From: Thermotogaceae bacterium
GTDB lineage: Bacteria > Thermotogota > Thermotogae > B21-G9 > HyVt-16
Assembly (NCBI GenBank): GCA_029981435.1
Contig: JARRBB010000010.1
Span: forward strand, 1-41,130
Direction of reading: 5' to 3'
Length of the DNA stretch: 41,130 nt
Shown in pieces: positions 8,463 through 12,201 of this stretch (positions are counted from its first letter, which is position 1; each line of letters begins with the position of its first letter). The position numbers and the translations under genes were made by a program. The notes beneath the pieces were generated by a model. The model worked only from the letters and a program-made list of their open reading frames with translations. It ran no database searches and was not told the DNA's origin.

Positions 8463-10127
8463 CTAAATTATCGTTCTTTCCCTGTACTCACCAAACACTT
8501 CTCTTAGTGCGTCAGATATCTCACCAACTGTTGCGTAATTTCTTACAGCATCTATTATTGGGTACATTATATTTTCAGATGTTTTTGCAACTTCCTTCAA
8601 TCTTTCAATGCTCATCCTCACTTTTTTCTCATCTCTTCTCTTTCTCAAATCTTTCAACCTTCGCTTTTGTTTTTCTTCAAGCTCAGGATCTACTTTTAAA
8701 ATGTTTTCAGGGATATAGTAATCATCGCTCTCAAATTTATTCACTCCAACAATCACAAGTGAGTTTTCTTCCACCATTTTCTGTTGACTGTACGAGCTTT
8801 CAGATATTTCACTCTGGATATAACCACTTTCTATTGCTGATATAGTTCCACCCATAGAGTCTATTTTATCTATGTATTCTTTTGCCTTGTTTTCTATTTC
8901 AGCCGTTAATTTTTCGACAAAGTAAGAACCTGCAAGGGGATCGATCGTGTCAGCTACACCTGATTCGTATGCGATTATCTGTTGGGTTCTCAAAGCGATT
9001 GTAACGGATTCCTCTGTTGGAAGAGATATAGCTTCATCATAAGAATTTGTATGCAATGACTGAGTCCCACCAAGAACAGCTGCCAGCGCCTGTAATGCTA
9101 CTCTTACAATGTTGTTCATAGGTTGTTGAGCAGTCAGAGTGGAACCACCTGTTTGAGTGTGAAATCTAAGTTTCAGGGCATTTTCAGTGGATACCTTGAA
9201 CCTTTCCTTCATTATTTTTGCCCACAGTCTTCTTGCAGCTCTGAACTTTGCTATTTCTTCAAAGAAATTGTTATGAGCGGCAAAAAAGAAAGAAAGTCTT
9301 GTACCAAAAACATTGGGATCAAGTCCCGCAGATATAGCTGCTTCAACGTATGCTATAGCATCTGCAAGTGTGAATGCTACTTCCTGAACAGCATTCGCCC
9401 CTGCCTCTCTTATGTGATAACCACTGATACTTATGGGATTGAACAACGGCATGTTCTTTGAGCAGTAATCAAAAATATCGGTTATTATTCTCATCGATGG
9501 TTTTGGAGGGTAAATATACGTACCTCTTGCTATGTATTCTTTAAGTATGTCGTTCTGAATGGTACCACGAAGTTTATCCGGTGATACACCCTGCTTTTCG
9601 GCGACTACCACATACATGGCAAGAATTATCGCAGCTGTTGAATTGATCGTCATTGAAGTGCTCACTTTATCCAAAGGAATATCTTTGAAAAGAACTTCCA
9701 TATCTTCAATACTGTCTATGGCTACACCTACACGTCCAACTTCACCTTCGGAAAGTGGATGATCAGAGTCGTAACCAATCTGTGTCGGAAGATCGAAAGC
9801 AACAGAAAGTCCAGTTTGTCCCTGTGACAAAAGATATCTGTACCTTTCGTTTGATTCTTCAGCTGTACCAAAACCAGCGTATTGTCTCATAGTCCAGAGC
9901 CTTCCCCTGTACATCGTCGGCTGAATACCACGGGTGAACGGATAAGAACCTGGAAAACCAAGTTCTTTCAAGTAATCAAATCCTTCCAGATCTTCAGGTG
10001 TGTAGAATCTCTTTATTTCTATCCCTGAAAGAGTTTCAAACTTTTCTTTTCTTTCAGGATACTTTTTCAAAACAGGATTCAATTTTTCTGCTTCCCACTT
10101 TTTCAATTCTTCAGATATTTTGCCCAT
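8463..10127 (-). CDS. mcmA1: Methylmalonyl-CoA mutase, large (catalytic) subunit
   Basis: 554 residues, the length of the catalytic TIM-barrel chain of two-subunit methylmalonyl-CoA mutases, which interconvert succinyl-CoA and (R)-methylmalonyl-CoA. The C-terminal B12-binding domain of the fused enzyme is absent and must be a separate protein; it is not in this window. Mapping onto the Propionibacterium enzyme, Tyr89 corresponds to Tyr83 (RQYAGF), Thr195/Gln197 to Thr189/Gln191, Arg207 to Arg201 and His244 to His238. Isobutyryl-CoA mutases carry Phe and Gln at the Tyr89 and Arg207 positions, so the residues seen favour methylmalonyl-CoA as substrate. It is followed closely by pspC and the liaF-like gene. 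Confidence 0.92.
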
Positions 10128-10162
10128 TGTATTTCCCCCTATTTTTTATTTTAATCATTATT

Positions 10163-10168
10163 ATTATA
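10163..10168 (-). promoter_or_regulatory. Candidate -10 element for mcmA1
   Basis: A perfect TATAAT on the minus strand, 36 bases before the mcmA1 ATG. No convincing -35 element is visible, and the upstream bases form the terminator of the preceding small-gene pair. Confidence 0.4.
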
Positions 10169-10174
10169 CCCCTG

Positions 10175-10198
10175 AAAAAAGAGGGGATGAGCCCCTCT
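10175..10198 (-). terminator. Rho-independent terminator after the small-protein pair
   Basis: On the minus strand a seven-pair stem (AGAGGGG/CCCCTCT) with a five-base loop is followed by a T tract that overlaps the stem end. It separates the two small genes from mcmA1. Confidence 0.8.
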
Positions 10199-10227
10199 GA
10201 GGAAAGGTCAATTTATTATCAGATTTA

Positions 10228-10410
10228 TTAGAAGAGTCTAAAAGGATCCATACCCGATTTTAAAGAAAGCCTTATCGATTCGTTTCTCATTTTTTGAATT
10301 GCAGAGTCGATATCTCTGTAGGAAACCAAATTTCTATTATCTTTCTTTTTTTCTATTTTCTCGAGATTGAAAATATTTACAAACACCTTGAGTACTGATT
10401 CCATAAACAT
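10228..10410 (-). CDS. Small protein, paralog of its upstream neighbour
   Basis: 60 residues, not recognised. ATG 10410 is preceded by AAGGGGG at seven bases. The last 28 residues align without a gap to the last 28 of the neighbour (10423-10620). The shared pattern is IxxxIQKhRxE, then a Ser and a Gly, ending in Arg plus two hydrophobic residues. The N-terminal stretch VLKVFVNIFNL also matches ILKLKLNFFEL in the neighbour. There is no signal peptide, cysteine pair or DNA-binding motif. It lies 12 bases downstream of its paralog and shares a promoter and terminator with it. Function unknown; a short helical protein is likely. Confidence 0.65.
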   Translation of the reverse strand: MFMESVLKVFVNIFNLEKIEKKKDNRNLVSYRDIDSAIQKMRNESIRLSLKSGMDPFRLF

Positions 10411-10422
10411 ACAGATTCCCCC

Positions 10423-10620
10423 TTAAATTATCCTCAAAAAGTTCGCTCCTATGAGACAACTTTTCAACATCTGTTCATCTCGGACTTTTTGGATCTCCTT
10501 TTCAATGTTTTTCAAAGATTTGCTGAACTTGATCGAAGAAACCATATCGTATCCCTCCAATTCTTTTTGTAATTTTGAAAAGTTCAACTCAAAAAAATTC
10601 AGTTTTAGTTTCAAAATCAT
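10423..10620 (-). CDS. Small protein, paralog of its downstream neighbour
   Basis: 65 residues from ATG 10620, which lies eight bases downstream of an AGGGGG site. A GTG at 10629 overlaps the site itself and is less likely. The first gene behind a consensus-like promoter (10667-10695). The sequence has an N-terminal ILKLKLNFFELNF segment, a Ser/Lys-rich middle and the C-terminal IEKEIQKVRDEQM block shared with the next gene. I do not recognise the family. The tandem duplication, two proper ribosome binding sites, promoter and terminator together argue that these are real genes. Confidence 0.65.
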   Translation of the reverse strand: MILKLKLNFFELNFSKLQKELEGYDMVSSIKFSKSLKNIEKEIQKVRDEQMLKSCLIGANFLRII

Positions 10621-10666
10621 CAAAATCACCCCCTAAAATTTTAAATTTTTTCTCCATTCGCTTAAT

Positions 10667-10695
10667 ATAATAGAACATTTTATAAAAAATGTCAA
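10667..10695 (-). promoter_or_regulatory. Sigma-70-type promoter for the small-protein pair
   Basis: TTGACA, 17 bases, then TATTAT on the minus strand. The -35 is perfect and the -10 matches at five of six positions. It lies about 47 bases upstream of the first small gene. Confidence 0.8.
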
Positions 10696-10744
10696 GTATC
10701 TTATTAAAAAAATCAAATAAATACTGAAAAAACAGAAATTCATG

Positions 10745-11031
10745 CTAAAAAAATGATAAAATAAAAAATTCGTGGATATTATCCACGAATTTTAAAAGAG
10801 TTTCCTCTTCCATTCCATCGTCCGAGAATGGTCCACAGGCGTTAATTCGGACGCTCCCCACCATATTTGTTCTAAAACATAATTTACCATCACTGTCTTG
10901 CCAGCTTGGTTTTCTACGAATGTATATCCCCATACGAGGATATTTGGCTTGTTTTTTGAAGAAGTTCTTGAAAGTACACTCTAAATCTTCGAGTGATTTG
11001 GGTAAATACGAAATTTGTAAGTTGGAAGCAT
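10745..11031 (-). pseudogene. Decayed IS605-type TnpB/OrfB remnant
   Basis: The fragment begins with MLPTYKFRIYPNHSK, the typical TnpB N-terminus, and hits a stop after 16 codons. A shifted frame continues with FKNFFKKQAKYPR, a typical TnpB segment. It then jumps directly to a C-terminal-like part (KPSWQDSDGK, RTNMVGSVRINACG) and ends in a hydrophobic tail. An intact TnpB is about 370-400 residues, so most of the RuvC-like core is deleted. The C-terminal DNA (GACGATGGAATGGAAG) resembles the TnpB end at the right edge of this window. No intact transposase or clear ends remain. Confidence 0.75.
10765..10793. repeat. 14-bp near-perfect palindrome in the TnpB tail
   Basis: Two 14-base arms (10765-10778 and 10780-10793) with a single central T form a perfect inverted repeat around CGTGGATA/TATCCACG. 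T- and A-rich flanks on the minus strand would let it act as a terminator. It lies where an IS605-family right-end hairpin would be, but a simple terminator explains it equally well. Confidence 0.7.
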
Positions 11032-11102
11032 TTTTTCACTTTCAATGAATATATATGATTTACTTACAGAAGATGGAGTCTTCTTTGCAAAAAATGATAA
11101 AA

Positions 11103-11127
11103 AATCCCGTCCAATCTGGACGGGATT
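11103..11127 (-). terminator. Rho-independent terminator of tRNA-Ala
   Basis: An 11-bp perfect stem (AATCCCGTCCA and its complement) with a 3-base loop starts six bases after the tRNA 3' end and is followed by TTTTT and further T-rich DNA on the minus strand. Confidence 0.88.
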
Positions 11128-11132
11128 GAAGT

Positions 11133-11208
11133 TGGTGGAGTCGATGGGATTTGAACCCACGACCTCTACCGTGCGAAGGTAGCGCGCTCCCAACTGCGCT
11201 ACGACCCC
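11133..11208 (-). tRNA. tRNA-Ala (anticodon CGC)
   Basis: 76 bases with encoded CCA. The acceptor stem GGGGTCG pairs with CGACTCC (one G-T pair). The D arm is GCGC/GCGC, the anticodon stem CTACC/GGTAG encloses loop TTCGCAC, and the T arm is GTGGG-TTCAAAT-CCCAT. Anticodon CGC reads the alanine codon GCG. It stands alone between the sugar operon and the TnpB remnant, with its own extended -10 and terminator. Confidence 0.95.
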
Positions 11209-11222
11209 ACTGAGCAGGATAT

Positions 11223-11231
11223 ATTATACCA
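11223..11231 (-). promoter_or_regulatory. Extended -10 promoter for tRNA-Ala
   Basis: TGGTATAAT on the minus strand ends 14 bases before the tRNA 5' end and contains the stop codon of the preceding dehydrogenase gene (ATG GTA TAA). No clear -35 element. Confidence 0.55.
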
Positions 11232-12201
11232 TTTCTATTTCAACTTTTCCACCTTTTTCTAACGATTTGTAAGCTGCTTCGACAACCTCCGTTGCTCGCA
11301 ACCCATCTTCTCCACTGGTGAAAGGTGTTCTTTTCTCAATATAAGCATCTATGAAATCTTTCAACATCAATTCATCTCCATCATCACTGACGTAGAAGTT
11401 CGATATTCTCTCACTTTCATTACTATAAACAAATCCAGCTGAGTTGAAAACATCAACCTCGAGAACCTCTTTCGTACCAACGATCCTCAAAGTTACATCA
11501 CCCCATGTCGGAAAAGAAACGGGTCTGTTCCAACTACAATCGAGACTTACAGGAATACCGTCAAGTTCGAGCATCAAAACAGCTGTATCTTCTACTTCTA
11601 TGTCTTTATGTATCTGATTCGCTCTGAAGGTTGTTACATTTTTAAATTCCTTACCTGTTAACCATCTCAATATATCCACAACGTGCACAACATGATCCAT
11701 TATCGCACCGCCACCGGAAAGTTCTTTTTCCAGAAACCAGCCGGGAGGCATTTTACCACGATTTGTTGCTGCAATCATGTATATTTCACCCAATTCTCCA
11801 TTATCGATCTTTCTTTTCAACTCTTTAATCGTTGGAGTGTACCTGACTGGAAAAGCAGTTCCAAGTACTGTTCCTTTTTCTTTACAAATTTCAACCATTT
11901 TTTTTGCGTCATCTGCATTCGTTGAAAGAGGTTTTTCACATAAAATTGCTCCTACTTTACCTGCAAGACTTTCAACATCTTTCAAATGATTTCTATTTTC
12001 AGACGTTATTACAACAACATCACATTTTTCAATTTCGGAAAACGGAACGAAGTTTATTCCAAGCGCTCTGGCAAAATTTTTTCCTCTCTCTTCGTCGGGG
12101 TCGTACAATCCAATAAACTCAACATTTTCGAGTTTCTTCAGTATGTTCGCATAGCTGTATGCGTGAACATGCGCAGCTGATAGCATACCAATCTTAATCA
12201 T
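11224..12201 (-). CDS. Gfo/Idh/MocA-family NAD(P)-dependent oxidoreductase
   Basis: 325 residues with an N-terminal Rossmann fold and a C-terminal alpha/beta domain. The family EKP signature (ILCEKPLS, about residue 93) is present, as is the GGGAIMDHVVHVVDILRWLTG helix with the conserved catalytic-region histidines. The dinucleotide loop is atypical (IGMLSAAHVHAYSY in place of GxGxxG), a variant seen in some members. The last gene of a three-gene sugar operon, six bases after the paralogous dehydrogenase. It probably oxidises or reduces a sugar, inositol or keto-sugar hydroxyl; the substrate cannot be read from sequence. Its stop lies inside the tRNA-Ala promoter. Confidence 0.88.
   Translation of the reverse strand: MIKIGMLSAAHVHAYSYANILKKLENVEFIGLYDPDEERGKNFARALGINFVPFSEIEKCDVVVITSENRNHLKDVESLAGKVGAILCEKPLSTNADDAKKMVEICKEKGTVLGTAFPVRYTPTIKELKRKIDNGELGEIYMIAATNRGKMPPGWFLEKELSGGGAIMDHVVHVVDILRWLTGKEFKNVTTFRANQIHKDIEVEDTAVLMLELDGIPVSLDCSWNRPVSFPTWGDVTLRIVGTKEVLEVDVFNSAGFVYSNESERISNFYVSDDGDELMLKDFIDAYIEKRTPFTSGEDGLRATEVVEAAYKSLEKGGKVEIEMV

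Follow-up and report, generated by a model that had tools for sequence, protein, structure and literature searches.

An uncharacterised tandem pair of small paralogous proteins with its own predicted promoter and terminator in a Thermotogaceae genome

Two short open reading frames that resemble each other, match no known protein family and seem to have a transcription unit of their own raise the question of whether they encode real proteins, and what these proteins could do together. They lie on the minus strand of a 41,130-nucleotide stretch from a Thermotogaceae bacterium (“the window” hereafter means this whole stretch), where ORF A (10423..10620) encodes 65 and ORF B (10228..10410) 60 amino acids, lengths and coordinates that a preliminary description of the locus had given correctly. 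ORF B is in the same frame as ORF A, and the gap between them consists of the stop codon of A plus 12 bases. The unit is flanked by a tRNA-Ala(CGC) gene (11133-11208) and by a gene at 8463-10127 which, from its sequence, we take to be methylmalonyl-CoA-mutase-like. The space of about 1.0 kb between these two genes is AT-rich and loosely packed, and holds an insertion sequence (IS) relic in addition to the A/B pair. This relic of IS200/IS605 type, about 307 bp long (10796-11102, minus strand), separates the pair from the tRNA-Ala terminator; it presumably preserves N- and C-terminal TnpB-like pieces, identified by eye, and scored 12.5 bits against Pfam HTH_OrfB_IS605, under the cut-off of 21. 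By manual count, matches elsewhere in the genome at E <= 0.001 number 20 for the left end (about 40 bases) and 11 for the right (about 60-95 bases), several of them sitting at contig ends. Between the relic and the A/B promoter lies a 13-pair hairpin with a T run (10765-10793); searched in full against the genome, it matched itself only, as an inverted copy.

The kinship between A and B exceeds what chance would produce in sequence comparisons. A gap-free alignment of the last 28 residues had been described, and 9 of these 28 are indeed identical (I, I, Q, K, R, E, S, G and R); the reported likeness is therefore real, but its extent was slightly understated, as kinship spans nearly the whole length of both proteins. 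Aligned locally, the two share 18 identical residues over 63 columns, with gaps of 2 and 7 residues, and BLASTP of A against B returns E = 2e-5 for a single comparison. Shuffling gave a mean score of 27.0 (sd 5.3), and 20 of 320,000 shuffled pairs reached the 62 of the real alignment; none of 207 sixty-residue pieces taken from 13 window genes did so, whether compared with A or with B. A less favourable control took the best 28-residue window without gaps; here 20 of 5,000 shuffles reached the observed value, and among real pieces 1 of 207 did so against A and 0 of 207 against B. The 165 window ORFs of 40-100 aa form 13,434 pairs without overlap, and in a ranking of these A and B came second; the top-ranked pair owes its place to two genes on the opposite strand, to which it lies antisense and which are homologous to each other (87 of 307 aligned residues identical). 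We take the two genes, by eye, to be Gfo/Idh-type oxidoreductases.

The pair had been proposed to be a compact, independently expressed unit, and a predicted promoter and terminator of its own support this. The TTGACA-17-TATTAT promoter of sigma-70 type is present on the minus strand at 10695..10667, matching the consensus at 11 of 12 positions, and from it a transcription start is predicted near 10660. The terminator described as clean was likewise found 3′ of ORF B on the minus strand (10198..10180); it is an intrinsic terminator with a 7-bp stem and a T run, folding at -11.4 kcal/mol, and 2 of 200 shuffles fold equally well or better. Both G-rich ribosome binding sites were confirmed, the Shine-Dalgarno sequence being AGGGGGTGAT at 4 nt upstream of the ATG of A and AAGGGGG at 7 nt upstream of that of B. 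Sites with at least 11 of 12 consensus matches (spacers 16-18) number 4 in the 41-kb window, and 2 of the other 3 lie just upstream of tRNA genes. Across the 1.96-Mb assembly, exact TTGACA-17-TATWAT occurs 22 times versus 2 for the reversed control pattern, and 4 of these 22 promoters have a tRNA gene no more than 250 bases downstream. A strong basal promoter is thus probable for the A/B pair, given the excess over the control, the use of this class by tRNA genes and the E. coli-like sigma-70 consensus of high information content that PMC3636130 reports for T. maritima. As in the Thermotoga maritima RpoD units of that study, an E. coli-like sigma-70 architecture is combined with well conserved ribosome sites; unlike them, with their median intergenic space of 5 bp, A/B is an orphan two-gene unit in a space of about 1.0 kb (PMC3636130). 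Other TTGACA-17-TATWAT promoters among the 22 of this genome precede ORFs that were labelled by eye as cold-shock-, Fur-, GntR- or antitoxin-like.

Promoters of this class also drive tRNA genes, and a strong one would suit a non-coding transcript on which A and B are chance ORFs; the weak codon score of A and the lack of homologues described below would agree with it. The codon score of ORF A is low, at the 1st-5th percentile of gene pieces, and its +2 frame, which has three stops, outscores the coding frame (17.7 versus 2.8 bits); that of ORF B, at about the 25th percentile, falls within the range of window genes. What speaks against chance ORFs is the in-frame paralogy, the pattern over codon positions and the two good ribosome sites, signs of real coding that stand beside the weak codon score of A. 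In an alignment picked for amino-acid similarity, which biases both tests toward the observed result, codon positions 1, 2 and 3 were identical in 23, 37 and 19 of 55 aligned codons, and neutral simulations with DNA identity set to the observed level (79 of 165 aligned bases) equalled the observed BLOSUM score in 0 of 5,000 and the count of identical residues in 2 of 5,000 cases. With less agreement at position 3 than at positions 1 and 2, translation of both frames is probable. In fact, 11 of the 18 identical residues are encoded by different codons, and the ungapped C-terminal register scores 37 in the coding frame versus -18, -18, 10, 2 and -14 in the five others. Moreover, the folding energy of the A/B transcript is ordinary (z -0.01) and Rfam gave nothing at gathering score in 9900-11400 besides the tRNA, both of which count against a non-coding transcript. 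We consider chance ORFs very improbable. Allowing for an alignment selected at the protein level, A and B would seem to have been under long-standing selection as proteins.

Inside the promoter spacer, between the -35 and -10 elements, an 18-bp dyad was found (ACATTTT-N4-AAAATGT, 10675..10692, no strand). It is the sole perfect copy in the 1.96-Mb assembly; with at most one mismatch there are 2 genomic sites versus 3 for the reversed control pattern. A 7-bp arm is found in 2 of the 22 TTGACA-17-TATWAT promoters, so that an operator is possible, not established; we regard the dyad as a candidate operator, and what the sequence offers on autoregulation as weak evidence. If the product or products of the pair did bind this dyad, keeping the promoter shut until needed, A and B would form either a toxin-antitoxin-type module under its own control or a small regulator acting locally. 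The position and uniqueness of the dyad, the two cistrons 12 nt apart and the regulator- or antitoxin-like ORFs (labels by reading) behind some promoters of the same class would all be in line with such a module, and type II toxin-antitoxin modules share with A/B the small, closely spaced cistrons and a possible promoter dyad. However, the toxin and antitoxin of one module are normally unrelated proteins. Instead of a toxin and an unrelated antitoxin of known families, the locus holds two paralogues without a toxin or antitoxin family match, as Pfam, NCBIfam and PADLOC gave nothing at cut-off and PHROGs reached E 0.03-0.04 at best. The counts of arms and control sites given above also weigh against autoregulation. 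Taken as a whole, a module or regulator of this kind is quite unlikely.

The preliminary description had known no family with such a pattern, and Pfam, NCBIfam, PHROGs and PADLOC bear this out. ORF A, at 13.4 bits versus a cut-off of 25 in Pfam and 13.9 versus 45 in NCBIfam, falls short in both databases, and ORF B has no match in either database; the best E values in PHROGs were 0.029 (A) and 0.043 (B), PADLOC gave none, and a sequence search of the PDB with a two-sequence A/B profile reached E 0.087 at best. The preliminary description had proposed a search for further copies in Thermotogales, and this was run in 103 Thermotogota genomes with each protein and with a profile of the two, where none was found. 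Protein searches at E <= 1 gave matches in 40 of the 103 genomes with A (best elsewhere 0.013) and in 32 with B (best elsewhere 0.045), and the profile did so in 45 of 103 at E <= 0.5 (best elsewhere 0.0014), each count including the own genome and none of the matches elsewhere being accepted as a relative. In a wider sample of 390 genomes, which includes Thermotogota, the profile matched 7 at E <= 0.01 (own included), the best elsewhere (7e-4) being inside a 672-codon frame. The family of the window is represented in the genome collection by one genome and its order by one other, about 79% complete. At each of seven loci inspected, the weak match lies on the strand opposite a longer ORF or in a different frame from it, and at three of them it also crosses stops; the remaining weak matches were judged by frame length and score alone. 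Phage searches gave one chance match each for A and B (E 5 and 0.1), and neither a plasmid search with B nor an IMG/VR search with both yielded a relative. No homologue outside the lineage has therefore appeared within the Thermotogota, 390-genome, phage, plasmid (B only) and IMG/VR searches, and none of the papers listed in literature searches deals with the pair, by which we do not claim its absence from print.

The neighbourhoods of corresponding genes were also inspected, with every ORF of 30-130 aa, whichever its strand, scored against the two proteins. The mutase-like gene is present in 90 of the 103 genomes, and neither in 20 of those 90 mutase neighbourhoods nor at ten tRNA-Ala loci from eight genomes, of which three have the anticodon CGC and seven GGC, was an A/B-like pair seen; the best scores, 42 among 1,317 ORFs of the mutase regions and 41 among 215 of the tRNA-Ala loci, compare with 62 for A and B themselves. 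An ORF of about 100 aa occurs upstream of the mutase-like gene in relatives (L064, 2599-2901; also L162, L164 and L171-L174), and that of L162 scores 38 against A/B, far under 62.

The lack of relatives may be due to fast divergence, loss or recent origin. Perhaps the pair was born recently, as a de novo small gene beside the IS relic that was duplicated later and has little or no function yet; the lack of relatives, which extends to the 20 mutase neighbourhoods and ten tRNA-Ala loci, and the AT-rich, loosely packed surroundings with their relic would favour such an origin. Yet A and B are far diverged (18 of 63 columns, 79 of 165 bases) and have nonetheless kept their amino-acid similarity and both ribosome sites, which argues for upkeep over a long time. 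A recent birth is in our view rather unlikely. Absence of homologs had been named beforehand as one half of what would refute the pair, and this half came true within the genomes searched; against it, the way A and B differ from each other suggests constraint at the protein level. A and B are, with high though not complete confidence, a real, paralogous and lineage-restricted protein pair. What stands is an uncharacterised, independently expressed paralogous pair for which the outside relatives that would make it a family were not found.

How such a pair might work can be approached through its predicted structure. In an AlphaFold2 (AF2) model of A, helices span residues 2-23 and 26-57, at low confidence (mean pLDDT 71, pTM 0.34), and in an artificial fused A-B chain they span 2-22, 32-91, 101-122 and 126-129 (pLDDT 62, pTM 0.30). 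Helical modelling of a dimer had been suggested earlier; helices are predicted, but the fused chain at pLDDT 62 leaves the dimer a guess. Foldseek gave 0 matches against the PDB. On the scale used to compute helical moments, hydrophobicity is greatest over the N-terminal 18-19 residues of both A and B, and by Kyte-Doolittle the highest stretch of A is its C-terminal end. In both chains the helical moment over 18 residues peaks within the C-terminal helix, at 31-48 (0.64 in A, 0.48 in B), and no transmembrane-like stretch was detected, the top 19-residue Kyte-Doolittle mean being 0.31 for A and 0.99 for B. Judging from these models, A and B may be two helical hairpins that pair.

Both products are small and cationic (12 K+R and 8 D+E each) and have amphipathic stretches, and they would be made together. 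These features might also be those of a secreted or membrane-active peptide pair, either a two-peptide bacteriocin or the precursor of a signal peptide. On reading, though, neither A nor B showed a double-glycine leader and no adjoining export or processing gene was noticed, the neighbours being a tRNA, the IS relic and the mutase-like gene; nor was there a family match at cut-off. Such a peptide pair seems to us highly unlikely.

The explanation that we put forward is that one small helical gene could have undergone tandem duplication, its copies diverging into A and B. Both would be co-transcribed from one near-consensus housekeeping promoter, with strong expression and probable translational coupling, and would thus be made together, probably in comparable amounts. 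Each chain would be mainly helical, with a hydrophobic helix at its N-terminus followed, after a break, by an amphipathic one at its C-terminus that bears the common IQK.R.E....S...G motif, and the two chains would pair through their helices into a hetero-oligomer, a small protein of accessory or regulatory function restricted to the lineage. We hold this whole mechanism, from duplicated and co-expressed helical pair to hetero-oligomer with an accessory or regulatory role, tentatively and with somewhat less than even confidence.

ORF A may moreover give rise to a second product. A possible internal start at M26 (short form 10423..10545, minus strand) has GGAGG 8 nt upstream of its ATG at 10545. 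In a comparison devised after the site was noticed, GGAGG at this spacing preceded none of the 209 internal ATGs that lie in frame within 32 window ORFs (10,729 codons), which were taken as genes, being at least 120 aa long and chosen for little overlap. With no comparable site among these 209, a 40-residue short form of A is plausible. It is worth adding that A differs most from B around the internal start, the 7-residue insertion of A beginning just after it. If the site were used, one transcript would give three products, B, the complete A and a short A of 40 residues, a form with the C-terminal helix only that could tune how the A/B complex assembles, and the pair would represent an undescribed helical family; we regard this extended scheme as doubtful.

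According to a survey (PMC2602986), 58.79% of mini-proteins are species-specific, as an average over six representative phyla. A and B resemble such species-specific mini-proteins in being under 100 aa and without a known domain or detectable relative, and differ from them in being two paralogues of one operon with strong individual signals and with internal coding evidence from their paralogy (PMC2602986). The candidate internal start and the promoter dyad would be further twists on this common theme. The A/B pair alone has no bearing on a large open question. If real, nonetheless, the possible internal start would make it a simple test case for one tiny gene making two subunits, and the pair would be an instance where paralogy within a genome reveals coding where outside relatives were not found, offering a route to recognise genuine orphan small proteins in poorly sampled lineages.
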